Below, piece after piece: positions 11,655 through 23,676 of a DNA stretch of 64,000 bases. The stretch is taken from the NCBI RefSeq assembly GCF_009905615.1, contig NZ_JAAAKW010000004.1, positions 310,001 to 374,000 on the forward strand. The letters run 5' to 3'. Each line of letters begins with the position of its first letter. Positions within the stretch are counted from its first letter, which is position 1. The stretch is from Pseudomonas sp. SLFW (lineage in GTDB: Bacteria > Pseudomonadota > Gammaproteobacteria > Pseudomonadales > Pseudomonadaceae). The notes beneath the pieces were generated by a model. The model saw nothing but the letters and a program-made list of their open reading frames with translations. It did not search any database and was not told where the DNA came from. The position numbers and the translations under genes were made by a program.

Positions 11655-12182
11655 ATGCACAAACCTCACAAAACGCTTCGGCTCGTCGCTGATCATTTCA
11701 AACAAGTCGGTGTTTCTATAGCGTCCAGCCCCTCTCGGGTTTGGGATGAGCTGGAACAGGTGTCAGCGTCGGGCGATCTGCCTGCCTTCGGCCATCAAGG
11801 CTACTGTGATCAGCAAAAACGCTTTGGCGCGGTCCGGCACTACCACGGCCGACTGATTTATGTGGTTTCCGGTGAGTTGCATGCAGAACTGGCCGCAGAG
11901 GTCATCCGTGTGAGATCGAAATCCGCGTTTTGGATACCGCCTTTGGTTCGGCATGAACTAAGCGTCAGCGCTGGAACGAAGTTTTACACGGTGTACGTTC
12001 ATGTGTTGCTTGTGTCTCATCTGCCTCCGAGGTGTTGGCGTTTCGGGGCGTCTCGTTTATTGGAGCAGGTCGCGCACACACTTTCCAATACGCCGCTGGG
12101 CTCCAGCGTGACCAAACAAAATAAGCTGCTCGCTGCGGTGTTGATCGACGAAATCAATAACGGTCGGCTCACCGGTATCTAG
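11655..12182 (+). CDS. AraC-type cupin sensor domain lacking HTH (copy A)
   Basis: 175-residue protein matching only the N-terminal ligand-binding cupin and linker of AraC regulators. The cupin signature 'RHYHGRLIYVVSGEL' (about residues 61-75) and 'AFWIPPLVRHEL' are intact, followed by 'VYVHVLL' and the linker 'WRFGASRLLEQVAHTL', 'NKLLAAVLIDEI'. The protein then stops; no HTH-like sequence follows in any frame before pcaH. A close paralogue of the same length lies at 14002, just beyond pcaG. I infer a free sensor or dimerisation partner, possibly modulating a full-length AraC protein. The ATG has only a weak ribosome site. Confidence 0.72.
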   Translation: MHKPHKTLRLVADHFKQVGVSIASSPSRVWDELEQVSASGDLPAFGHQGYCDQQKRFGAVRHYHGRLIYVVSGELHAELAAEVIRVRSKSAFWIPPLVRHELSVSAGTKFYTVYVHVLLVSHLPPRCWRFGASRLLEQVAHTLSNTPLGSSVTKQNKLLAAVLIDEINNGRLTGI

Positions 12183-12468: not shown

Positions 12469-13188
12469 ATGTCTGACGCATCCAACAGTCGTTTCGCCAT
12501 TCGCGATCGTAATTGGCACCCTAAAGCGCTGAACCCCAACTATAAGACCTCGATCCTGCGTTCGCCGCGCCAGGCGTTGGTCGGCATCCCTCAATCGGTA
12601 TCTGAAACCACCGGTCCGGACTTTTCCCACCTGCAAATGGGTCGTCACGACAGTGATCTGCTACTGAATTTCAACAACGGTGGCCTCCCCATCGGCGAGC
12701 GCATCATCCTTGCCGGGCGGGTCACTGATCAGTATGGCAAGCCCGTTGCACATACCTTGGTGGAGATGTGGCAGGCCAATGCGGGCGGACGCTACCGCCA
12801 CTACAAAGACACCTATTTTGCGCCACTGGACCCGAACTTCGGCGGCGTTGGTCGCTGCCTCACTGACCGAGACGGCAATTACATCTTCCGGACCATCAAG
12901 CCCGGCCCGTATCCCTGGCGAAACGGCCCTAATGACTGGCGCCCTGCGCATATTCATTTTTCCATCAGCGGTCCGTCGATCTCCGCCAAGCTGATCACCC
13001 AGATGTATTTCGAGGGCGACCCGCTGATCCCGATGTGCCCGGTCGTCAAGTCCATCGCTGACCCGGACGCCGTGCAGAGCCTGATCGCTCGATTCGACCT
13101 GAGCATGGCCAATCCAATGGATTGCCTGGCTTACCGCTTTGATATCGTCCTGCGCGGTCAGCGCAAGACTCACTTCGAAAACGCTTGA
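12469..13188 (+). CDS. pcaH: Protocatechuate 3,4-dioxygenase beta subunit
   Basis: Fe(III) intradiol dioxygenase subunit that, with PcaG, opens protocatechuate to 3-carboxy-cis,cis-muconate in the beta-ketoadipate pathway. 239 aa, full length. The four iron ligands are visible: Tyr109 in '[10 protein letters not shown]', Tyr148 in '[10 protein letters not shown]', His161 and His163 in '[12 protein letters not shown]'. The C-terminus '[18 protein letters not shown]' is near-identical to P. putida PcaH as I remember it. It overlaps no gene; pcaG starts 11 bp later. No pcaQ-type LysR sits next to it; instead sensor-only AraC-type proteins flank the pair. Confidence 0.96.
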
Positions 13189-13199
13189 GGAAGGCTGTC

Positions 13200-13802
13200 A
13201 TGCCCGTTCAACTTCTGCCGGAAACTCCGTCCCAGACCGCTGGTCCTTACGTGCACATTGGCCTCGCGCTGGAAGCCGCAGGTAACCCGGCCCGAGAGCA
13301 GGAAATCTGGAATGAAATGGCCAAACCCGGCGCCCCCGGTGAACACATCCTGCTGCTTGGACACGTCTATGACGGCAACGGCCACCTGATTCGCGATTCG
13401 TTTCTGGAGTTCTGGCAGGCCAATGCCGACGGGGAATACGACACCGACTACGACCTCGATAAGTCCTTTAACAGCTTTGGCCGCAGTGCCACGGCTGACG
13501 AGGGCGAATGGGTGATCAAGACCGTCAAACCAGGCGTGGTACGCAACGCTGCGGGCGTCCCGATGGCGCCCCACGTCAACGTGTCGCTCTTCGCCCGTGG
13601 CATCAACATTCATTTACAGACACGCCTCTATTTCAACGATGAAGATCAAAGCAATGCGGTTGACCCCGTACTGAACCTGATTGAGCAACCTGCTCGCAGG
13701 CAAACGCTGGTGGCCCAACGTTGCATGGTGGAGGGCAACGTTGCCTATCGTTTCGACATCCGGGTGCAGGGCGCAGACGAAACCGTCTTCTTCGACTTTT
13801 GA
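13200..13802 (+). CDS. pcaG: Protocatechuate 3,4-dioxygenase alpha subunit
   Basis: Partner of PcaH; the alpha chain shares the intradiol fold but does not hold the catalytic iron. 200 aa. The start at ATG 13200 gives 'MPVQLLPETPSQTAGPYVHI', the known N-terminus of the subunit, with GAGGAAGG about 6-13 bases upstream; an in-frame start at 13185 would only add five residues and overlap pcaH. Other landmarks are 'GEHILLLGHVYDGNGH', 'KPGVVRNAAGVPMAPHVNVSLFARG' split region and the C-terminal 'ETVFFDF'. Operon with pcaH. Confidence 0.95.
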   Translation: MPVQLLPETPSQTAGPYVHIGLALEAAGNPAREQEIWNEMAKPGAPGEHILLLGHVYDGNGHLIRDSFLEFWQANADGEYDTDYDLDKSFNSFGRSATADEGEWVIKTVKPGVVRNAAGVPMAPHVNVSLFARGINIHLQTRLYFNDEDQSNAVDPVLNLIEQPARRQTLVAQRCMVEGNVAYRFDIRVQGADETVFFDF

Positions 13803-14001: not shown

Positions 14002-14526
14002 ATGAGCGAAAAGTATCAGGCCTTGAGGCTTGTCAGTAATAACGGCCAGTCCCCAGGCGTGCCGAGTAGCCCGTTGTGGAATCGCATGGAAGATATGTCC
14101 GCTGCTGGGCATTTACCGGCGTTTGGGCATCAGTACTATTGCGATGACCCTAAACGTTTCGCAAAAACCCGGCATTACCACGGCCGGCTCATTTATGTCC
14201 TGTCAGGTGAGCTGAACGTTGATTTGAACCTGGAGTCGTTATGTGTGGAAGCAAAGTCAGCGATATGGATCCCTGCTTGGCTGTCTCATGGGCTGCGCGT
14301 CAGTGAAAAGACCATGTTCAATGCTGTCTATGTGCATACGCTACTCATGGGTTACCTGCCCGTTTCGGCCCGCAGGTTTGGGGCATCTCCCTTGCTCGAG
14401 CAGATCACAAACGCATTGGCAGAGGTTCCGATGGGGGCAAAGATCACAAAACGTTCACGACTCCTGGCCGCCGTTATGATCGATGAAATACATGCGTCAG
14501 AGATAACGGTGGGTGGGTCCGTCTAG
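14002..14526 (+). CDS. AraC-type cupin sensor domain lacking HTH (copy B)
   Basis: 174-residue paralogue of the protein at 11655; about half of the aligned residues look identical by eye. Shared blocks include 'LPAFGHQ', 'RHYHGRLIYVLSGEL', 'WIPAWLSHGL', 'VYVHTLL', 'RRFGAS.LLEQ' and 'LLAAVMIDEI'. Like copy A it ends where the two HTH motifs of an AraC regulator should begin, and no HTH remnant follows. Equal truncation of both copies argues that the sensor-only form was already fixed before duplication. It stands 200 bp after pcaG in the same direction. Ligand unknown; a protocatechuate-related compound is a guess. Confidence 0.72.
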   Translation: MSEKYQALRLVSNNGQSPGVPSSPLWNRMEDMSAAGHLPAFGHQYYCDDPKRFAKTRHYHGRLIYVLSGELNVDLNLESLCVEAKSAIWIPAWLSHGLRVSEKTMFNAVYVHTLLMGYLPVSARRFGASPLLEQITNALAEVPMGAKITKRSRLLAAVMIDEIHASEITVGGSV

Positions 14527-14681: not shown

Positions 14682-15617
14682 GTGAAAAGCCTGATGAAAC
14701 TGCACCCGTTGCCCCCTCTCAATAGCCTTGTCGCGTTTGAGGCCTCCGCGCGGCACCTGAGCTTCACCCTTGCTGCCCGTGAACTGAATGTCACCCAGGG
14801 AGCGGTAAGCCGCCAGATTCGCCTGCTTGAGGAGTATCTCGGTAAGCCGCTTTTTAGCCGGACGACCCGGGAGATCGTGCTGACGACGACAGGGCGAGAC
14901 TATTGTGAGGTCGTGCGCGAGTCGCTTCAAAAGGTTGCACATGCGACCGCAGGTGTTCGTCACTGGCAGGGGACCGAACAGGTCACCGTTGTCACCAGTA
15001 CCGCCATGGCGTCACTCTGGTTGCTGCCGAGAGTGTCTGTTTTCAAGAACCTGAACGACGAAATCGACTTGCGCATCATTGCGACCGACGCCATGCATGA
15101 GTTTTCCCGGCTTGACTGTGATCTGGCCCTCTATTACTGCCGCTCTCAGCCCAGCAATGCCAAGGTTACCCCGTTGTTTGCTGAAGAGATCTTTCCTGTC
15201 TGCAGTCCTGCTTACCTGGCTCGTCATCCCCAATTGGCCAATCCGCAGCAGCTTGGAGAAGCCACTTGGTTGTGGCTGGAGGATCCTCAGAGTGACTGGA
15301 TTGGATGGCACGAGTGGTTTCACAAGAGTGGCCTAAAGGCGACTGAACCTCGCAACCGGATCAACATCAACAGTTACTCCATGCTGATCCAGTCGGCGTT
15401 GGCCGGCCAGGGCGTGGCGCTGGCCTGGTCTAATCTCGTGGATGATCATTTGTCGAACGGCACACTGGTGCGCCCCGTTGACATGGTGCTGCGTACCGAT
15501 GCTCGTTTCTGTCTGTTGGAACCGGCTGGACGCTCGGCCAATCGCCAGAGCGTCAACCGTTTCAGGCAGTGGCTGCTTACCCAGATCAGCGATTCTCAAC
15601 TCGCTGCTGTCAGCTAG
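14682..15617 (+). CDS. LysR-family regulator (GcvA-like)
   Basis: 311 aa. The N-terminal HTH spans about residues 12-65 with the GcvA-group phrase 'LPPLNSLVAFEASARHLSFTLAARELNVTQGAVSRQ' (read in parts) and 'LFSRTTREIVLTTTG'. The C-terminal part is a LysR substrate-binding domain. Its last bases overlap the end of the convergent cupin gene by 4 bp. It sits beside the BCCT/Rieske locus and GcvA-like regulators commonly control glycine-betaine-type and amine catabolic genes, so it is the natural candidate regulator of that locus. ATG 14697 ('MKLHPLPPL') is an alternative start. Confidence 0.88.
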   Translation: MKSLMKLHPLPPLNSLVAFEASARHLSFTLAARELNVTQGAVSRQIRLLEEYLGKPLFSRTTREIVLTTTGRDYCEVVRESLQKVAHATAGVRHWQGTEQVTVVTSTAMASLWLLPRVSVFKNLNDEIDLRIIATDAMHEFSRLDCDLALYYCRSQPSNAKVTPLFAEEIFPVCSPAYLARHPQLANPQQLGEATWLWLEDPQSDWIGWHEWFHKSGLKATEPRNRININSYSMLIQSALAGQGVALAWSNLVDDHLSNGTLVRPVDMVLRTDARFCLLEPAGRSANRQSVNRFRQWLLTQISDSQLAAVS

Positions 15618-15976
15618 GACAGTAGCTCAGCCGCAGCGGATTCGATGACGAGCATCACGCACCCCGAAGGGGAGTGGAGGTGGTGCTCCGAGTCCGACGC
15701 ATAGACCAGGCTTGAGCCTGCCTTGAAGCAACTCCCATCGCTGTCCTGAACCTCCCCCTCCCAGATGACAATCAGCTCCTCGCCTCTGTGGCGATGGGGT
15801 GGCGACTGGCTTCCGGGTGCCATCTTCATCCAGTATCCATGCCAGGTGTGAGCGTTCGCCAACTCGGCATATTCCAATCCTGGCAGCGGCATGTCCCCTA
15901 TGATCAGCGGCTGCCAGACCAGGCTGGACAGGTCAGCCTGGTCTCGATCACTCGAAAGGGGAAACCTGGAGCTCAC
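15614..15976 (-). CDS. Small cupin-domain protein
   Basis: 120-residue single-domain cupin. Motif 1 is 'SPPHRHRGEELIVIWEGE' (about residues 58-75) and motif 2 includes 'GSSLVYASDSEHHLHS'. Its ATG overlaps the stop of the BCCT transporter gene (ATGA), so the two are co-translated. A cupin this small may be a metal-dependent enzyme or a small-molecule binding helper. Co-transcription with the transporter suggests a part in handling the imported compound. Confidence 0.8.
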   Translation of the reverse strand: MSSRFPLSSDRDQADLSSLVWQPLIIGDMPLPGLEYAELANAHTWHGYWMKMAPGSQSPPHRHRGEELIVIWEGEVQDSDGSCFKAGSSLVYASDSEHHLHSPSGCVMLVIESAAAELLS

Positions 15977-17640
15977 GCCATTTCCCGGTGGGTGGGTTGA
16001 GTCAACAGCTGTCCGGTTTCAGGTCGAAGCGATACGTCGTTGATCGCGGGTCGCATCATCAGGGTCTGGACCGGCCAGACCGTATCCTCTCGTAAGCTAC
16101 GCAACAGGCTGTAGGCCGTCACGAGCAGGAAGAGGGCGATGGGAAGCCCGATCACGATGCTCGCCAATTGAATAGCCGCCAGTCCCCCAGCTAACAAAAG
16201 ACCGCCAGCAATCGCCCCTTCAAGGAAACACCAGAGCACGCGTATCCAGTTAGGCGGGTTGATGCTGCCCACCGAATTGAGCATACACAGCACTTGAGTG
16301 CCCGCATCCGCGGTCGTCACAAAGTGCACCGCCAAAAGAAGGCAAACCAGCACACACAACATTCCGCCTATCGTCGGCCCGTCAAGGCGCTCAAGCAGCG
16401 TGAACATGGCTGACGTTGTTTCTTTCTGCGTGGCTTGCAGAATGACACCGCCTTGAAACGGTGCGGTTGCGTTGTCCTGCGAGCTGACCTGCTGAGCGCT
16501 GGCGATACGGGCGTTCTGCTCATCCTTCAGCGCAGAACCACCGAACACTGACATCCACAGGATGGTGACCAGTGTTGGTACCAGCAGCGCGCCAATGATC
16601 AGTTCCCGGATTGTGCGGCCGCGGGAAATGCGCGCGATGAACAGTCCTACGAACGGGCCCCAGGTCATCCACCACGGCCAGTAGAAGGCCGTCCAGCTTT
16701 TTTGCCAGGACGAGTTAGCCTGTGTATCCGTCCAGAAGCTCAAGCCGACCAAATGCTGGAGATAGTCGCCAGTAGATTCGAACAGGAAATTCATGACATA
16801 GCGGGTTGGGCCCAGTGCCAGAACCACCAGCATCAAACCGAACGACATCCACATGTTCAAGATCGACAAACGCTTCATCCCTCGTGAAACACCCGCCACG
16901 AGAGACACTGCGGCGATGAGGCTCACCAGCGCGATGATGCCCAGTTGCAGGCCCATGCTGACGGGAATTTGAAACACCTGATTGAGGCCGGTGTTGATTT
17001 GTACCACGCCCAACCCCAGCGATTGAGACACGCCAAACGCCGTGATGCAGACACCCATGATGTCCACTGCGTGTCCAATCGGCCCGTAGATTCGCTGACC
17101 GATCAGTGGGTAGAGAACCGAGCGAAGCGCCAGTGGCAGGCCTTTGCAGTAGGCGAAATAAGCAAGCCCGAGCCCAATGGTCGTGAAGATAGCCCACGGA
17201 TGCAGGCCCCAATGGAACAGCGTCAGGCGCATGGCAGTGGTGGCGGACTCATCCGTCAGCCCTTTGCTAAACGGGTTTGACGAGTAGTGCAGCACGGGTT
17301 CGGCCACGGACCAGAAGATCAGGCCGATCCCCATCCCTGCACTGAAGAGCATCGAGATCCAGGCAGGGAAGCTGAATTCGGGTTTGTCTCCTTCACGCCC
17401 GAGCTTGAGCGTGCCGTAGCGGCTGACAGCGATGAGGATCAATGCGCCCAACAGGCCGCTTACTAACGCAAGATAAAACCATTTGAAGTTGTCGAGGATT
17501 GCATCCGATGCAATTTTGAAAGCGTGAGCGGCCTGATCTCCAAGCGTCGCGCACAGCACGACGAACGCAAGAACAATAGCCACGGAAACGATCGTTACGG
17601 TTGGATTGAGGCCTTTGAACAGGCCACTTTTGGCACGCAT
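15973..17640 (-). CDS. BCCT-family betaine/carnitine/choline transporter
   Basis: Inner-membrane secondary transporter for quaternary ammonium compounds, 555 aa, with about 12 membrane segments. Family marks are 'GMGIGLIFWSVAEPVLHY' near residues 98-116, and the Trp-rich segment 'FYWPWWMTWGPFVGLF' with 'ISRGRTIRE' near residues 317-345. The C-terminal tail is short, unlike osmoregulated BetT forms, which suggests a nutrient-uptake rather than osmosensing role. Divergently arranged from the Rieske operon with a 296-bp shared promoter region, so it probably imports that operon's substrate. Confidence 0.93.
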   Translation of the reverse strand: MRAKSGLFKGLNPTVTIVSVAIVLAFVVLCATLGDQAAHAFKIASDAILDNFKWFYLALVSGLLGALILIAVSRYGTLKLGREGDKPEFSFPAWISMLFSAGMGIGLIFWSVAEPVLHYSSNPFSKGLTDESATTAMRLTLFHWGLHPWAIFTTIGLGLAYFAYCKGLPLALRSVLYPLIGQRIYGPIGHAVDIMGVCITAFGVSQSLGLGVVQINTGLNQVFQIPVSMGLQLGIIALVSLIAAVSLVAGVSRGMKRLSILNMWMSFGLMLVVLALGPTRYVMNFLFESTGDYLQHLVGLSFWTDTQANSSWQKSWTAFYWPWWMTWGPFVGLFIARISRGRTIRELIIGALLVPTLVTILWMSVFGGSALKDEQNARIASAQQVSSQDNATAPFQGGVILQATQKETTSAMFTLLERLDGPTIGGMLCVLVCLLLAVHFVTTADAGTQVLCMLNSVGSINPPNWIRVLWCFLEGAIAGGLLLAGGLAAIQLASIVIGLPIALFLLVTAYSLLRSLREDTVWPVQTLMMRPAINDVSLRPETGQLLTQPTHREMA

Positions 17641-17936
17641 TGGGATTCTCCCCTTTTTGTTTTAGTACGCCATCGTATGACGCCGATACGCGACTGGGAT
17701 TGATAGCGCCGCCAATTTGCGCGAGGCCGAAGCGCTCAACAAACTATTTAAACTCATCGACTTATGAGATTTACGCATGCGAGAGAGGGCAGATAAGACA
17801 AAAAATAATTAATGATAATTTCTCATTAATAGCGTTGAAAAAATCGTTTGTGACGCGGGGCGTGAAATCGGAAGAATTCGCCGGGCCAAGGCCTGACCCT
17901 GACGGCCTCGAACAAGCGATTTTGGAGATAACAATA
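17641..17936. promoter_or_regulatory. Divergent promoter region of BCCT and Rieske operons
   Basis: 296 bp between the two start codons. It contains GGGGAGAATCCC as ribosome site for the BCCT gene and TTGGAGATAAC for the Rieske gene, with an AT-rich core around 17740-17830. The reading frame upstream of the Rieske start is open but looks non-coding (no family similarity). Confidence 0.55.
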
Positions 17937-19118
17937 ATGGGCACCGCGAATCTCATCCCCGTGCAAAGTCTGGAAACCGTGCTTTCTCCTATCGAGCAAG
18001 CTCATGGTTTGACCAACCCTTTCTATACCGATCAACGTTACTTCGAGCTTGATCGTGACCATGTGCTGGGCCGCAACTGGGCATGCATAGGCTTTGCATC
18101 CGACCTGCCGAGGAACGCCTACGTGAAGCCGGTTGATTTCATGGGCCTGCCTTTGCTCATGATGCGTAACCGCGAAGGGACAGTTCAGGTCTTCCACAAC
18201 GTGTGCAGTCACCGCGGGGTCAAGTTGGTGCAGGCTGCAGGCGAAGTGCAGGGCGTTATCCGATGCCCGTACCACTCCTGGACGTACGACCTGAACGGCG
18301 CTCTGCGAGGCACCCCGCATGTGGGGGGTATTAACCAGCACAAAGATGACCGCTTCGCTTGCGAGAAGCACGGCCTGAAGGCACTGCGCAGCGAAATCTG
18401 GATGGACATGGTCTTCGTCAACCTGTCGGGTGATGCACCGGATTTGCAGGAGTCCCTGGCACCGCTGACAGAACGCTGGGCTCAATTCCTGGGTGCTGAC
18501 GGGATGGGGCTGATGCGCCGCGAATCGAACAGCGGCGCCATGGCCATCGAGGTCAAGTGCAACTGGAAACTGGCAGTGGAGAACTACTGTGAGGCGTACC
18601 ATCTGCCGTGGGTACATCCGAGCCTGAACACGTATTCTCGCCTCGAAGACCATTACAACATCATGTTTGATCAGTTCGCCGGACAAGGCAGCTATGCCTA
18701 CAACCTGTCCGATGTTGCGGGCACCCATCTTCCGACATTCCCGTCGTGGCCTGCGGATCGCATGCGCAACGCCGAGTACGTCGCGTTCTTCCCCAACGTC
18801 CTGCTGGGCATCCAGGCCGACCACGCGTTCGCCATGATGCTGGAACCTATCGAGCCAGGAAAAACCGTTGAGCATCTGCGCCTGTTCTACGTCGGCGATC
18901 AAGCGCTCGATGCGAAATACGAAGCTGCCCGCAAGGCGGTCATGGACTCGTGGCGTGTGGTGTTTGCTGAAGACATTGCTTCGGTTGAAGGCATGCAGAT
19001 GGGGCGCAGCTCGCCAGGTTACAACGGCGGCGCTTTCTCCCCTGAAATGGATCTTCCAACCCATTACTTTCACAAGTGGACGGCTCGGCAATTGCTCGAT
19101 ACCGCCAAGCAAGGTTGA
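17937..19118 (+). CDS. Rieske non-heme iron oxygenase, alpha subunit (quaternary-amine type)
   Basis: 393 aa. The Rieske [2Fe-2S] site is Cys90-x-His92 and Cys110-x2-His113. The mononuclear iron site is 'NYCEAYHLPWVH': His222, His227 and probably Asp346. The residue three before the first His, which bridges electron flow between subunits, is Glu219; most ring-hydroxylating enzymes have Asp here, while carnitine oxygenase CntA has Glu (recalled). With a BCCT transporter opposite and an aldehyde dehydrogenase 11 bp downstream, I read it as cleaving or demethylating a quaternary amine. ATG 17937 follows TTGGAGA and fits the family start; a longer frame reaching 17640 lacks support. Confidence 0.88.
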   Translation: MGTANLIPVQSLETVLSPIEQAHGLTNPFYTDQRYFELDRDHVLGRNWACIGFASDLPRNAYVKPVDFMGLPLLMMRNREGTVQVFHNVCSHRGVKLVQAAGEVQGVIRCPYHSWTYDLNGALRGTPHVGGINQHKDDRFACEKHGLKALRSEIWMDMVFVNLSGDAPDLQESLAPLTERWAQFLGADGMGLMRRESNSGAMAIEVKCNWKLAVENYCEAYHLPWVHPSLNTYSRLEDHYNIMFDQFAGQGSYAYNLSDVAGTHLPTFPSWPADRMRNAEYVAFFPNVLLGIQADHAFAMMLEPIEPGKTVEHLRLFYVGDQALDAKYEAARKAVMDSWRVVFAEDIASVEGMQMGRSSPGYNGGAFSPEMDLPTHYFHKWTARQLLDTAKQG

Positions 19119-19129
19119 GCCAGGAGAAC

Positions 19130-20572
19130 ATGATGAATTCCAGACACTGGCTTAATTACATTGATGGGCAATGGGTCGACAGCGAGCAACGATTGACCAT
19201 CCTTGCACCTGCGACCAACCAGCCCGTTGCGACCATCGCCCAAGCCAGCGAGGCCGATGCCGAGCGAGCCCTAAATGCTGCTCGCCGCTGTGCCGACAGC
19301 GGCGAACTCACCCATGCGCGTCCGGCGCATCGCGTGGCGTGGTTGCTCAGGATTGCGGAAGAAATCCGCGCCATCGCCGATGAGGGTGCTCGTATCTTGT
19401 GCGCGGAAAATGGCAAGACGCTGCGCGATGCAAAAGGCGAGTTCGATGAAGCGGCCCGCTATTTCGAATATTACGCGGGCATGGCCGACAAGATCGAAGG
19501 CACGTCGATCCCGTTGGGCAACGGGTACATGGACTTCACTCTGTACGACCCAATGGGTGTCTCGCTGCAGATCGTGCCGTGGAATTTTCCTGTCTCGATT
19601 TGTGCGCGCTCGCTGGCTCCGGCACTCGCCGCCGGCAACGCCGTAATCGTCAAATCCCCAGAGCTTTCGCCCCTCGGGTTGTGCGTGCTGGTAGAAGCCA
19701 TCGAACGTGCGGGCACGCCGCCAGGGGCTGTGAATCTCCTGTGTGGACGTGGTCGAGAAGTCGGGGCGTATATGGCGTCCAGTAACAAAGTCGATCAGAT
19801 CGTGTTCACGGGATCGGTACCCACAGGCCAAACCATCCTGCGATCGGCCGCCGAGAACGCCGTGCCGTGCGTGATGGAGTTGGGGGGCAAGTCAGCGGCT
19901 TTGGTATTCCCGGATGCTGACCGCGAGCAACTCCTGACCAGCGTTCGCGATGGCATTTTCTTCAACGCCGGGCAGGTCTGCTCTGCCTTGTCGCGAGTCC
20001 TCATCCATCGCTCGATCTACGATGAAATCGTGAATTCGATCGTTGAAATGGTGGACGGCTTCAGCATCGGTGCCGGGGAAGAGAACCCCGTCATCACTCC
20101 CGTGATCTCTGCGGGGCAGCTCACCGGGATCGACGTGCTTTGCCACTCGGCTCAGGAGGAGGGCGCAGTGGTCGCCACTGGAGGCGAGCGCCTGTCAGGC
20201 ATGGCAGGGAACTTCATGGCGCCCACCGTTTTTCGGGACGTTACTCCCGAGATGAGCATCGCTCAAATTGAGGTGTTCGGCCCAGTGCTGGCAGCCATTG
20301 CTTTTGACACGGAAGAAGAAGCCATCGCCATTGCCAACGGCACAGAGTTTGGACTGGTGGCAGGCGTCTTCACTCAGGATCTCAACCGAGCCTTGCGTTG
20401 TTCCCGGCGTCTGCGTGCTGGCCAGGTCTTCGTGAACGAGTGGTACGCCGGCGGGATCGAGACGCCTTTTGGGGGGGTTGGGCTTTCCGGTTACGGACGC
20501 GAAAAAGGGCAAGAAGCGTTGTACAGCTACGTGCGCACCAAGAACCTCGCTATTCGCATCAAGGGGGAGTGA
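19130..20572 (+). CDS. NAD(P)-dependent aldehyde dehydrogenase
   Basis: 480 aa, full-length ALDH. The active-site Glu250 lies in '[13 protein letters not shown]' and the nucleophile Cys284 in '[13 protein letters not shown]'; the cofactor loop '[11 protein letters not shown]' is at about 224-234. The start has two tandem ATGs (19130, 19133) after AGGAGA. It sits 11 bp behind the Rieske gene, and its stop overlaps the next start (TGATG). In carnitine breakdown by CntAB the oxygenase yields trimethylamine and an aldehyde that a dehydrogenase oxidises; the same division of labour is likely here, with an unidentified aldehyde. Confidence 0.92.
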
Positions 20573-21966
20573 TGAGCGTCGCACTGAAAAAGTGGCTCTG
20601 CATCGTGTGTGGATGGATCTACGACGAAGCACTGGGCTGGCCGGACGATGGGATCGCCCCCGGTACGCGTTGGGAGGACATCCCGGATGATTGGCTGTGC
20701 CCTGAATGCAAAGTCGGGAAAGCTGATTTTGAAATGATCGAAATCAGCGAGGTGGTCATAGCGGTCGCTCAAACGACACTCCTCAAAACGCCGGAAACAC
20801 CCGTCCCACCTGCGCAACCCGTCGTCATCATTGGCAGCGGCTACGCCGGTTATGGCTTGGCTCAGGCACTTCGCAAAGCCGATCCAGCCATCGAGATCAG
20901 GGTTCTGACTCAAGAGGACGGGCACAATTACTCTAAGCCGGCACTCTCTATCGCCCTTGCGCAAGGGCGGGAGCCCTCATCGCTGGCCACGGAGAGTCCG
21001 ATAGCCATCGAAGAGCGGCTAGGCATACGTGTCTACCCGCACTGTCGTGTTGAGCGCATCGATACCGACTCCCGCCGACTGTTCACCAACCTGGGTGAAA
21101 TGGTTTACGGGCAACTCATTCTGGCCAGTGGCGCGTCGCCGGTGAGGGTGCCAGTCGAAGGCGCGAGTGAGGCCCTGATCAGCGTCAACAACCTGCATGA
21201 CTACCATGGGTTTCGGGCGCGTCTTGCCGGGGTGAAGCGGGTCGCCATTCTGGGAGACGGGCTTATCGGTTGTGAGTTCGCCAACGACCTGGCCGCCAGC
21301 GGATATGAAGTTCAGGTGATCGGATTGGGCGCCTGGCCAATGGAGCGCTTGCTGCCCAGGCCAGTCGGCGTCCAGCTTCAGGATGCTCTGTCCAACCTGG
21401 GTGTTCGGTGGCACTTGGGTACGACACTGCAACGTGTCGCGCCCCGTGCATCCGGTTTCGAGCTGACCCTCGCGAATGGCGAAAACCTTGAAACGGATAT
21501 CGTGTTGTCAGCTATCGGCCTGCGCCCGAATCTGGAGCTCGCTCGTGCGGCAGGAATCAAATGCGACAGAGGCATCCTGACCGACGCCTACCTGCAAACG
21601 TCCCAGCCGGGCGTGTATGCGTTGGGCGATTGCATTGAAGTCAACGGGCAGTTGCTGCCGTACCTCGCTCCGATCAATCAAGGTATCCAGGCGCTCGTGA
21701 AGACAATCACAGGCACCCCGACAACCGTGAGCTACCCCTTGATGCCCGTCATGGTGAAAACGCCCGCTGCGCCGCTCAGCCTGCTGATTCCATCTCCGGG
21801 GACTGCGGGCCAATGGCGCTGTGATGCAACCGAGGATGGGTTGAGTGCGGCGTTTCACGATGAGGCGGGGGCCGTACGAGGGTTCGTCCTCCTGGGGCGT
21901 CAGGCGCAGGGTCACCGATCCACTTGGCTGCAACGTTGCCAAGACACACAACAGAGCGTGGCTTGA
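20572..21966 (+). CDS. Rubredoxin-NAD(P)H reductase fusion flavoprotein
   Basis: 464 aa. Residues 5-55 form a complete rubredoxin: Cys10-x2-Cys13 and Cys43-x2-Cys46 with '[17 protein letters not shown]' between them. From about residue 82 a two-dinucleotide-domain reductase follows: FAD site '[12 protein letters not shown]', NAD site '[14 protein letters not shown]' and the closing FAD motif 'GVYALGDC'. In effect it is a one-piece electron supply, NAD(P)H to FAD to rubredoxin. Its place between the ALDH (1-bp overlap) and the FAD oxidase strongly suggests it feeds the Rieske oxygenase, which usually draws on a [2Fe-2S] ferredoxin instead. Confidence 0.9.
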
Positions 21967-21976
21967 GGGCCGACAA

Positions 21977-23305
21977 ATGAACAGTATTGTCAAACTGCCG
22001 CACGACGACAGCACCTGCGGTTGGTACGAAGCCTTGCCTCCACCGGCTGCGAGCCATCGCCTCCAGGGCCAACAATCCGCAGATCATGTTGTCATCGGTG
22101 CAGGCTTCGCAGGGCTCAGCGCGGCACGGCGGTTAGCCGAACATCTGCCTGACGCACGGATCCTGTTGGTGGATGCTCAGCGTGTGGGCTATGGCGCGTC
22201 TGGGCGCAACTCCGGTTTCGTGATCGACCTGCCTCATAAATTCGCGCTGGAACATCCGGACCCCCAGCATAAACAACGGCTGCTCGGCCTTAATCGCTCT
22301 GCAATCGCCCAGCTTGAGTCTTTGATCAATCAGCACGGGATTCAGTGCCAGTGGTCCCATGCCGGGAAGTATCAAGGCGCGGTAGGTGACCGGGGCTTGG
22401 CTTACCTTGATCACTTCCAGGGTTTGCTCGACAACCTGGGCGAAACCTACAACGTGGTGGAACGCCGAGAGCTTGCTTCAGTACTGGGGACCGAGCACTA
22501 CAGTCGAGCGATCTTCACACCTGGCTGCTATCTCATGCAGCCTGCCGCCTTGGTTCGTGGCCTTAGATATTCGCTTCCGGCAAACGTCGAGGTGCTTGAG
22601 GAGTCACCGATCAGAGGGCTTGAGCGTGACGCTTCCGGTCTGTGGGTTCTGAACGGTGATAACGGGGCGATTCGGACGCCGAGCGTTCTGTTGAGCACGA
22701 GCATTTTCACCCAAGAGTTTGGGTACCTGCGTAACCGGTTGTTGCCCGTCATGACATTTGCCAGCTGGACGCGACCGTTGACCGATGAGGAAATGGCCTC
22801 TGTGGGTATCCAGCCGGACTGGGGCCTGACGCCCGCCGATCATGCAGGTACCACGGTGCGCATGACTCAAGACCGGCGGTTGATCATCCGCAACACGTAC
22901 AAACATGTGCCTCGGTACGGGCGCAGCGTGAGCGGGGGCACGCGGGACAAGATTCGTGAAGACCACCGCAAGGCGTTCCTTGACCGTTACCCGACATTGT
23001 CGCGTGTCCCGTTCACCCATACGTGGGGAGGCACCTACGCGATCTCTCGGAACTTCACGAACTTTTTCGGCAAAGTGAACGAGGGGGTTCACGTCACCGC
23101 CTGCGACAACGGCGTGGGTGCCGCATGGGGAACCGTGTCTGGCCGATTGCTGGCAGACAAGGTGCTGGGTGCCGACTCCCAGCAGCTCCAGGACATTCAG
23201 GCCGTTACCGGAATGCCGTCGCTGAACCCTCCGGAGCCGTTTCTGGGGTTGGGGGTGCGGACGCGCATTCGCTGGGCCGCCTGGAACAGCAGGAGTGAGT
23301 TGTGA
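21977..23305 (+). CDS. FAD-dependent amine oxidoreductase (DAO/PuuB-like)
   Basis: 442 aa of the DAO superfamily. The FAD site is 'HVVIGAGFAGLSAARRLAE' (about residues 37-55), followed by 'VGYGASGRNSGFV', which resembles gamma-glutamylputrescine oxidase and glycine/sarcosine oxidase relatives. The C-terminal flavin-binding 'GVGAAWGTVSGRLLADKVLG' is intact. It starts 10 bp after the reductase and its stop overlaps a GTG start of the next gene. It probably oxidises a secondary or tertiary amine product, releasing an aldehyde or formaldehyde. Substrate unknown. Confidence 0.87.
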   Translation: MNSIVKLPHDDSTCGWYEALPPPAASHRLQGQQSADHVVIGAGFAGLSAARRLAEHLPDARILLVDAQRVGYGASGRNSGFVIDLPHKFALEHPDPQHKQRLLGLNRSAIAQLESLINQHGIQCQWSHAGKYQGAVGDRGLAYLDHFQGLLDNLGETYNVVERRELASVLGTEHYSRAIFTPGCYLMQPAALVRGLRYSLPANVEVLEESPIRGLERDASGLWVLNGDNGAIRTPSVLLSTSIFTQEFGYLRNRLLPVMTFASWTRPLTDEEMASVGIQPDWGLTPADHAGTTVRMTQDRRLIIRNTYKHVPRYGRSVSGGTRDKIREDHRKAFLDRYPTLSRVPFTHTWGGTYAISRNFTNFFGKVNEGVHVTACDNGVGAAWGTVSGRLLADKVLGADSQQLQDIQAVTGMPSLNPPEPFLGLGVRTRIRWAAWNSRSEL

Positions 23306-23676
23306 CGAGCCAACGTTGTACCGGCAAAGGCCCGGTCGTTCTGGTCGACCACCGTGACCTGACGTTTAGTCATCGCGGTGGCCCACCGGGAGGTGCCAGC
23401 GTCGCACGGGCTCTCACTAACGAGGTCTCACCGAACATGGGGGTTGGCTTCGCACGGTGGGAGGGCGCAGAGGTGTCGTGGACACTTTTGTACGACGAAG
23501 TCATCTTTGTGATTGAGGGCCGTTTCGAGCTGTCCGCAAACGGGGTGGCGTACTCAGTCGAGCCGGGTCAGGTGCTCTGGATTCCGGATGGCACCGAGGT
23601 GACCTACGCAGGTCATGCGTTGTTCGGTTACGTGGTGTATCCCGGGAACTGGAAAGAGCGGCAGCTCGGAAACTAG
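23302..23676 (+). CDS. EutQ-like cupin protein
   Basis: 124 aa, GTG start overlapping the preceding TGA (GTGA), so translationally coupled as the last gene of the Rieske operon. The body matches the EutQ-type cupin: 'LLYDEVIFVIEGRFEL', 'YSVEPGQVLWIPDGTEVTY' and 'YVVYPGNW'. EutQ-like cupins are found in ethanolamine and choline-related loci; one member is reported as an acetate kinase but the small single-cupin forms have no agreed role. Together with the cupin at 15614 the locus has one cupin in each transcription unit. Confidence 0.8.
   Translation: MTSQRCTGKGPVVLVDHRDLTFSHRGGPPGGASVARALTNEVSPNMGVGFARWEGAEVSWTLLYDEVIFVIEGRFELSANGVAYSVEPGQVLWIPDGTEVTYAGHALFGYVVYPGNWKERQLGN

Follow-up and report, generated by a model that had tools for sequence, protein, structure and literature searches.

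The window analysed here is a stretch of 64,000 nucleotides from Pseudomonas sp. SLFW (RefSeq assembly GCF_009905615.1, contig NZ_JAAAKW010000004.1, positions 310,001 to 374,000), which has a genome of 6.49 Mb. The subject of this text is a gene cluster in this window that is built around a Rieske oxygenase; near relatives within Pseudomonas encode the same oxygenase. An earlier reading of the letters alone, below called the original prediction, had proposed that the cluster breaks down a quaternary or N-methyl amine.

On the plus strand lie the Rieske oxygenase (17937-19118; Pfam Rieske and Ring_hydroxyl_A), an aldehyde dehydrogenase or ALDH (19130-20572; Aldedh), a fusion of rubredoxin with an NADH:rubredoxin reductase (20572-21966; Rubredoxin, Pyr_redox_2 and Rbx_binding), an FAD-dependent oxidase of the DAO family (21977-23305; DAO) and a small EutQ-like cupin (23302-23676; EutQ, 68 bits against a cut-off of 21). 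Facing away from these on the minus strand are a BCCT transporter (15973-17640) and a ChrR-like cupin (15614-15976; Cupin_7 and Cupin_2). A LysR-type regulator (14682-15617, plus strand; Pfam LysR) follows.

All seven reading frames between 15614 and 23676 are present and uninterrupted, with start codons that are the authors' selection from the in-frame starts. The families originally given to these seven genes hold up in Pfam, and their arrangement in two divergent, tightly packed units is confirmed. The minus-strand cupin and the transporter overlap by 4 bases. On the other side the oxygenase is 11 bases away from the ALDH, which overlaps the reductase by 1 base; the reductase is in turn 10 bases away from the DAO oxidase, which overlaps the EutQ-like gene by 4 bases.

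The two units are separated by 296 bases (17641-17936). This region has blocks in common between the window and seven relatives, including a stretch near AAAATCGTTTGT. When 8 intergenic regions are aligned, one block common to the window and its relatives holds an inverted repeat, CTCAT-N6-ATGAG, at 17753-17768 (no strand assigned), which is a candidate LysR site.

The original prediction suggested looking for the five-gene order in Pseudomonas genomes. Loci were collected from one genome collection using the oxygenase as the only query. Since the best 80 of at least 585 confirmed stretches were retained, these are nearest relatives and do not form a random set. Neighbours were scored with the proteins of the window inside set distance windows, and each denominator counts the loci with enough sequence. 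The order oxygenase, ALDH, rubredoxin/reductase, DAO and EutQ is complete in 57 of 70 loci, which is beyond chance. Taken singly, an ALDH sits directly downstream of the oxygenase in 74/78 loci, the rubredoxin-reductase fusion is found in 70/75, the DAO oxidase in 58/70 and the EutQ-like cupin in 57/70. Hosts of the five-gene unit include Pseudomonas, Acinetobacter, Vibrio, Halomonas and some betaproteobacteria. In three loci (L091-L093), DAO and EutQ are found a few kb off on the opposite strand, a rearrangement.

On the other side of the oxygenase, some BCCT transporter is present in 58 of 66 loci and the LysR gene in 65 of 66. The minus-strand cupin turns up in just 2 of the same 66. Membership of the system therefore shifts somewhat: six of the seven genes first proposed stay, the cupin at 15614-15976 is probably incidental, and the regulator at 14682-15617, which had been missed, likely governs the operon.

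Among solved structures, the best sequence match of the oxygenase is the carnitine enzyme CntA (7e-33), followed by 3n0q and the stachydrine demethylase Stc2. Foldseek, run on an AlphaFold model (mean pLDDT 87), fills places 1 to 18 with CntA, Stc2 and 3n0q, and aromatic enzymes come later. Identity to CntA is about 21%. In a tree of 37 sequences, NdoB and BenA split from CntA, the GbcA/Stc2-type enzymes and the family of the window with support 99/98; this tree is midpoint-rooted, has two aromatic references only, and carries a long-branch warning for the very long CntA, NdoB and BenA branches. The family itself is one clade of 30 rows (99/99), apart from both CntA and the GbcA/Stc2 type. A grouping of the oxygenase with aromatic hydroxylases, named beforehand as the outcome that would speak against amine chemistry, did not occur with these two references.

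Group V Rieske oxygenases have been divided by a single position. Group Va has an aromatic residue at the equivalent of CntA-203 and includes enzymes for carnitine, choline and benzalkonium, while group Vb has an asparagine there and contains the glycine betaine and proline betaine demethylases (PMC7948474). Residues were mapped by pairwise alignment to CntA for 41 rows, made up of the window and 40 loci out of the 80. At the CntA-203 equivalent, 38 of these rows have Tyr and 3 have Phe, which is the Va signature. The bridging Glu and the His-His-Asp iron ligands are found in all 41 rows. Also in 41/41, the aromatic pocket residues Phe258, Tyr315 and Phe319 correspond to Tyr, Trp and Phe, and the polar carnitine contacts Tyr225, Asn270 and Tyr295 are replaced by His, Gly and Leu. 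In this alignment the cation cage is retained and the remainder of the carnitine site is not. Predicted fold and sequence place the oxygenase among the group V enzymes for quaternary amines, as a Va-like member.

This bears on the two chemistries first offered. Since the signature position holds the Tyr/Phe of group Va rather than the Asn of group Vb, cleavage of a C-N bond is preferred to N-demethylation. GbcA and Stc2, likewise quaternary-amine oxygenases of group V, have that Asn. The benzalkonium oxygenase OxyBAC is a Va enzyme described as cleaving C-N to yield an amine (PMC7948474, PMC7225539). Its signature residue is Phe, where the window has Tyr, a comparison drawn from its published description.

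Several better known activities can be put aside. An aromatic ring hydroxylase is rejected on fold ranking, signature residues and the tree with its two aromatic references. Annotations now in use for genes of this set include aromatic ring-hydroxylating dioxygenase as well as ethanolamine utilization protein EutQ. The GbcA equivalog of NCBIfam scores 134.6 bits, below its cut-off of 670, and the signature is Tyr and not Asn. A GbcA is found elsewhere in the same genome (791.6 bits, above the cut-off), and at another place there is a second Vb-type oxygenase (390 bits) that has its own LysR and reductase; these two genes are at C1:271867-273084 and C52:152795-154048. Both contain the motif NNRECYHC, as do enzymes from Agrobacterium and Cereibacter. 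The glycine betaine route was rejected on the low model score and the presence of a GbcA elsewhere in the genome. Conversion of choline to glycine betaine would be compatible with the signature, yet it would give DAO and EutQ nothing to do; the sequences compared included no choline monooxygenase.

The closest known layout is that of carnitine. The Acinetobacter baumannii cluster reads carR (LysR), mdh, bcct, hydrolase, cntA, msadh, cntB (PMC11353897). The window was originally held not to have the cntAB layout. For the proteins this is so, but the order of LysR, BCCT, Va-signature oxygenase, then ALDH and then reductase does resemble the carnitine cluster as described there. The differences are a separate oxygenase clade, a rubredoxin-fusion reductase, the additional DAO and EutQ genes, the loss of the polar substrate residues, and mdh, which was not seen in the operon.

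This likeness leads to a first alternative, in which the operon works much like the carnitine pathway and turns an acyclic trimethylammonium compound (gamma-butyrobetaine, beta-alanine betaine, trimethyllysine or similar) into trimethylamine and a semialdehyde. The gene order is the same, and CntA itself also accepts gamma-butyrobetaine (PMC7948474, PMC11353897). However, the polar carnitine contacts are replaced in every one of the 41 oxygenase rows, no clear task is left for DAO and EutQ, and the ALDH differs at a telling residue. This alternative is considered very unlikely.

The ALDH residues come from an alignment of the window with 74 loci (E <= 1e-100, at least 54% identity; others were dropped). 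The catalytic Cys and Glu are found in 75/75 rows. Compared with malic semialdehyde dehydrogenase, Arg166 is likewise retained in 75/75, but Arg284 has become Phe or Tyr in all of them; the reference was cut at its end, which places Ser447 outside the judged positions. Because of the replaced Arg284, the substrate is probably an aldehyde other than malic or succinic semialdehyde. The best NCBIfam model is BADH, at 405.1 bits below its cut-off of 668.6. Six loci (L088, L089, L094, L099, L100 and L102) have oxygenase, ALDH and reductase, while DAO and EutQ were not found in the available stretch, and the ALDH therefore belongs with the oxygenase. In CntAB the aldehyde arises from C-N cleavage by the oxygenase, and these loci support the same origin in the operon of the window.

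The reductase likely supplies the oxygenase with electrons. It resembles rubredoxin reductase 2v3a joined to rubredoxin 2v3b (both PDB), and all 73 loci that encode the reductase have the N-terminal rubredoxin, both CxxC pairs included. The operon in the window has no ferredoxin or FNR-type reductase gene. In three loci belonging to other classes, L107 (from Phaeobacter), L110 and L114, a VanB-type reductase is found beside the oxygenase and the rubredoxin fusion was not found. Rubredoxin has been listed with a naphthalene dioxygenase of Rhodococcus, and a need for rubredoxin in o-xylene oxidation is cited (both in PMC5209329).

For the transporter, the BCCT subfamily model gives 472 bits (cut-off 407.55) and the glycine betaine equivalog gives 537.6, below its cut-off of 650. 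By family and linkage it is the likely importer of the betaine. The regulator scores 282.9 for GcvA (cut-off 288) and 261 for the choline-sulfate regulator (cut-off 324.8), both below.

The model of the DAO enzyme (mean pLDDT 78) is nearest to glycine oxidase (Z 34.1, 355 residues, 2.6 A), followed by L-proline dehydrogenase (Z 32.5, 361 residues, 3.4 A). Sarcosine oxidase comes third (Z 31.4, 363 residues, 3.3 A), and NikD and DMGDH reach a Z of about 28.6. Identity to the listed solved structures is 10-20%. Sarcosine and glycine oxidases and the L-pipecolate oxidase AmaA share the DAO fold and oxidise glycine and secondary or N-methylated amines; like them, the enzyme is predicted to oxidise an amine or N-methylated amino acid. 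Different types of flavin amine oxidase recur beside the oxygenase, as seen from two sets of loci: in L107, L109, L110 and L118 a DAO-GcvT protein of the DMGDH/sarcosine dehydrogenase type replaces DAO, and in L101 and L114 there is another DAO-family protein with weak similarity to SoxB, the L101 copy being on the opposite strand.

Outside the operon, the nearest DAO among the plasmid-collection matches has 54% identity and is part of an Agrobacterium cluster from alfalfa. That cluster holds a Vb-type oxygenase, an NADH:flavin oxidoreductase, electron-transfer flavoproteins and formaldehyde genes, and is read as being of the proline betaine type. Further relatives are accompanied by TRAP transporters, or by DHDPS-family and ALDH genes. 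From sequence context, these neighbourhoods point to cyclic or N-methylated amino acids without fixing the substrate.

A second alternative draws on the same enzyme. Here the oxygenase would demethylate a cyclic betaine such as proline or pipecolate betaine, after which DAO would oxidise the ring amine in the manner of L-pipecolate oxidase, the ring would open to a semialdehyde, and the ALDH would oxidise that. The best NCBIfam model for DAO is indeed AmaA, but its 124.4 bits are far below the cut-off of 600. The second place of L-proline dehydrogenase in the fold ranking and the alfalfa cluster, with its Vb demethylase and formaldehyde genes, would suit this route. The signature of the window's oxygenase is Va and not Vb, however, and some loci have oxygenase and ALDH where DAO was not found. 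Demethylation is rated unlikely.

The EutQ-like cupin has no histidine among its positions conserved at 95% or more. RidA follows the DAO homolog in Agrobacterium and Leisingera, and EutQ precedes it in Tistrella and Paracoccus, which raised the idea of the cupin as a stand-in for RidA in imine hydrolysis. A wider survey was unsupportive: among 17 DAO loci, including that of the window, 3 have EutQ, and in 14 both EutQ and RidA are missing from the nearest 1.5 kb or so. The Klebsiella locus L133 has neither, and L132 has a cupin and RidA. The idea is retained as a weak lead only.

Putting this together, the reading somewhat favoured is that of an inducible operon for the catabolism, by C-N opening, of a betaine-type quaternary amine other than carnitine, with a proline-type cyclic betaine as the leading candidate. 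Fold, tree, signature residues and gene order all agree with the original assignment to quaternary or N-methyl amine catabolism distinct from gbcAB and cntAB. In such a pathway, LysR would sense the betaine and BCCT would import it, as family and linkage suggest. Electrons would travel from NADH through the fused rubredoxin reductase to rubredoxin and on to the oxygenase. The oxygenase would hold the quaternary nitrogen through a pi-cation contact, a role taken over from CntA for a residue that is seen here, and would hydroxylate a carbon next to the nitrogen, thereby opening the C-N bond and producing an aldehyde in carnitine-pathway style. The ALDH would convert this aldehyde into an acid. 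The nitrogen part would be an N-methylated amine, or an N-methylated amino acid if the substrate is cyclic, for the DAO flavoenzyme to oxidise. EutQ may handle a product of that step, which is the weakest link. As a guess at the substrate, a proline-type cyclic betaine would yield an N-methylated dicarboxylic amino acid.

A number of observations weigh against this. The C-N step is derived from one residue, in enzymes of roughly 21% identity. In 41/41 rows the Cys206/Cys209 pair known from CntA and Stc2 is replaced, by Ala or Ser at the first position and Leu at the second; a Cys-X-X-Cys near the iron is described as unique to some group V members (PMC10952381). The 54% DAO relative next to a Vb demethylase would equally suit a demethylation route. 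L077, L086, L087, L101 and L103 are without reductase, ALDH or both: L077 has DAO and no reductase, and in the other four the ALDH is missing at its expected place, which are real gaps. Beyond the Gammaproteobacteria, relatives of the oxygenase are frequently without ALDH.

This last point extends to the wider family, where 9 of 21 loci have the oxygenase relative near ilvBH-like genes (judged by eye) and without ALDH. Because of these, the family may, on this sequence comparison, have more than one function. In 9 of the 21, a protein of about 80 residues without a Pfam match follows the oxygenase (for example L107:14589-14828).

If the favoured reading of C-N opening is right, this gene set of soil and marine Proteobacteria would mark the ability to use one particular betaine. 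Among the nitrogen compounds of plants and algae, betaines are abundant. The operon would also show Rieske chemistry driven by rubredoxin acting on an aliphatic amine; the precedents found, in PMC5209329, are aromatic. A bolder form of the reading has it that this is an undescribed third clade of quaternary-amine Rieske enzymes, which takes its electrons from one rubredoxin-NADH reductase fusion in place of a [2Fe-2S] ferredoxin reductase. It would cleave the ring of a cyclic betaine (an N-methylpyridinium or one of the proline betaine type), giving a dicarboxylic amino acid that is N-methylated. In this full form it is judged improbable. If true, a widespread osmolyte would enter glutamate metabolism without N-demethylation as the first step. 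A literature search found neither this gene order nor a rubredoxin-fed quaternary-amine Rieske enzyme, with most subscription journals outside its coverage. Further background is found in PMC12093977, PMC8079746, PMC9162365, PMC12817926 and PMC4744692.

Near some of the oxygenases lies a further group of genes, designated module 2. It consists of a 573-residue protein without a Pfam match, DUF3726, a BCCT transporter, an M19 dipeptidase, an ALDH like 2-oxoglutarate-semialdehyde dehydrogenase, RidA and a LysR regulator. It occurs together with the oxygenase in L105 (2520-10655), L107 (18554-25043) and L110, and partly in L101 (17928 onward); in genome G313 the two are about 11 kb apart. In a sample of 398 genomes of the phylum, the oxygenase (E <= 1e-90) is present in 22 and the module 2 marker in 28, with both in 17. 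The hypergeometric probability of this overlap, 2e-18, is inflated by common ancestry within one family (f55). Outside that family both sets are present in 3 of 6 oxygenase genomes (p 5e-4, assuming 40 f55 members sampled). Module 2 may be a further betaine pathway.

This matters for a third alternative, which is that the operon in the window is the published homarine operon, or part of it. That operon is reportedly named homABCDER, is said to make N-methylglutamate, and is also said to reach alphaproteobacteria. Such a name, presumably five genes and a regulator, would fit the window operon and module 2 alike. Oxidase types for N-methyl amino acids do adjoin the oxygenase, and 17 of the 22 sampled oxygenase genomes also carry the marker of module 2, which could suit homarine chemistry. 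But module 2 fits the name equally or better, and, judged by chemistry and spread, is probably the better homarine match; its marker was not found in the genome of the window; and the full five-gene unit is present in 0 of 19 loci of other classes. Identity with the homarine operon is thus quite unlikely, although the class of compound is possibly common to both. The homarine catabolism paper (Nat Microbiol 2026) is cited in PMC13390433.

The gene set proposed for C-N opening is accessory and patchy in its distribution. Among 298 Pseudomonadaceae genomes, 25 match the oxygenase (E <= 1e-60), 23 of them at 77% identity or more (the own genome included) and 2 at 34-36%. A DNA search against E. 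coli genomes gave no match.

Other genes were noted along the way. An M24 enzyme related to the DMSP lyase DddP is found in 16 of 66 loci (for example L046:12715-14007, L105:19210-20457 and L066:5332-6678), once, in L046, between ALDH and reductase; one such protein scored 440.5 against the DddP model, below the cut-off of 600. In a Rhodospirillales assembly, a gene of the MTTB family, part of the trimethylamine methyltransferase superfamily, adjoins the oxygenase (L086:11276-12832). The record NZ_CP077849.1 (L104) has a plasmid title and comes from a plasmid collection, but is probably a chromosome because it is 3.66 Mb long.

Upstream of the regulator, the window holds genes for the beta and alpha subunits of protocatechuate 3,4-dioxygenase (pcaG/pcaH, 12469-13802), both above their NCBIfam cut-offs. 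They were considered as members of the system and rejected, being present in 0 of 66 loci. Two small cupins that look alike, at 11655-12182 and 14002-14526, bracket them, and Pfam finds no DNA-binding domain in either.

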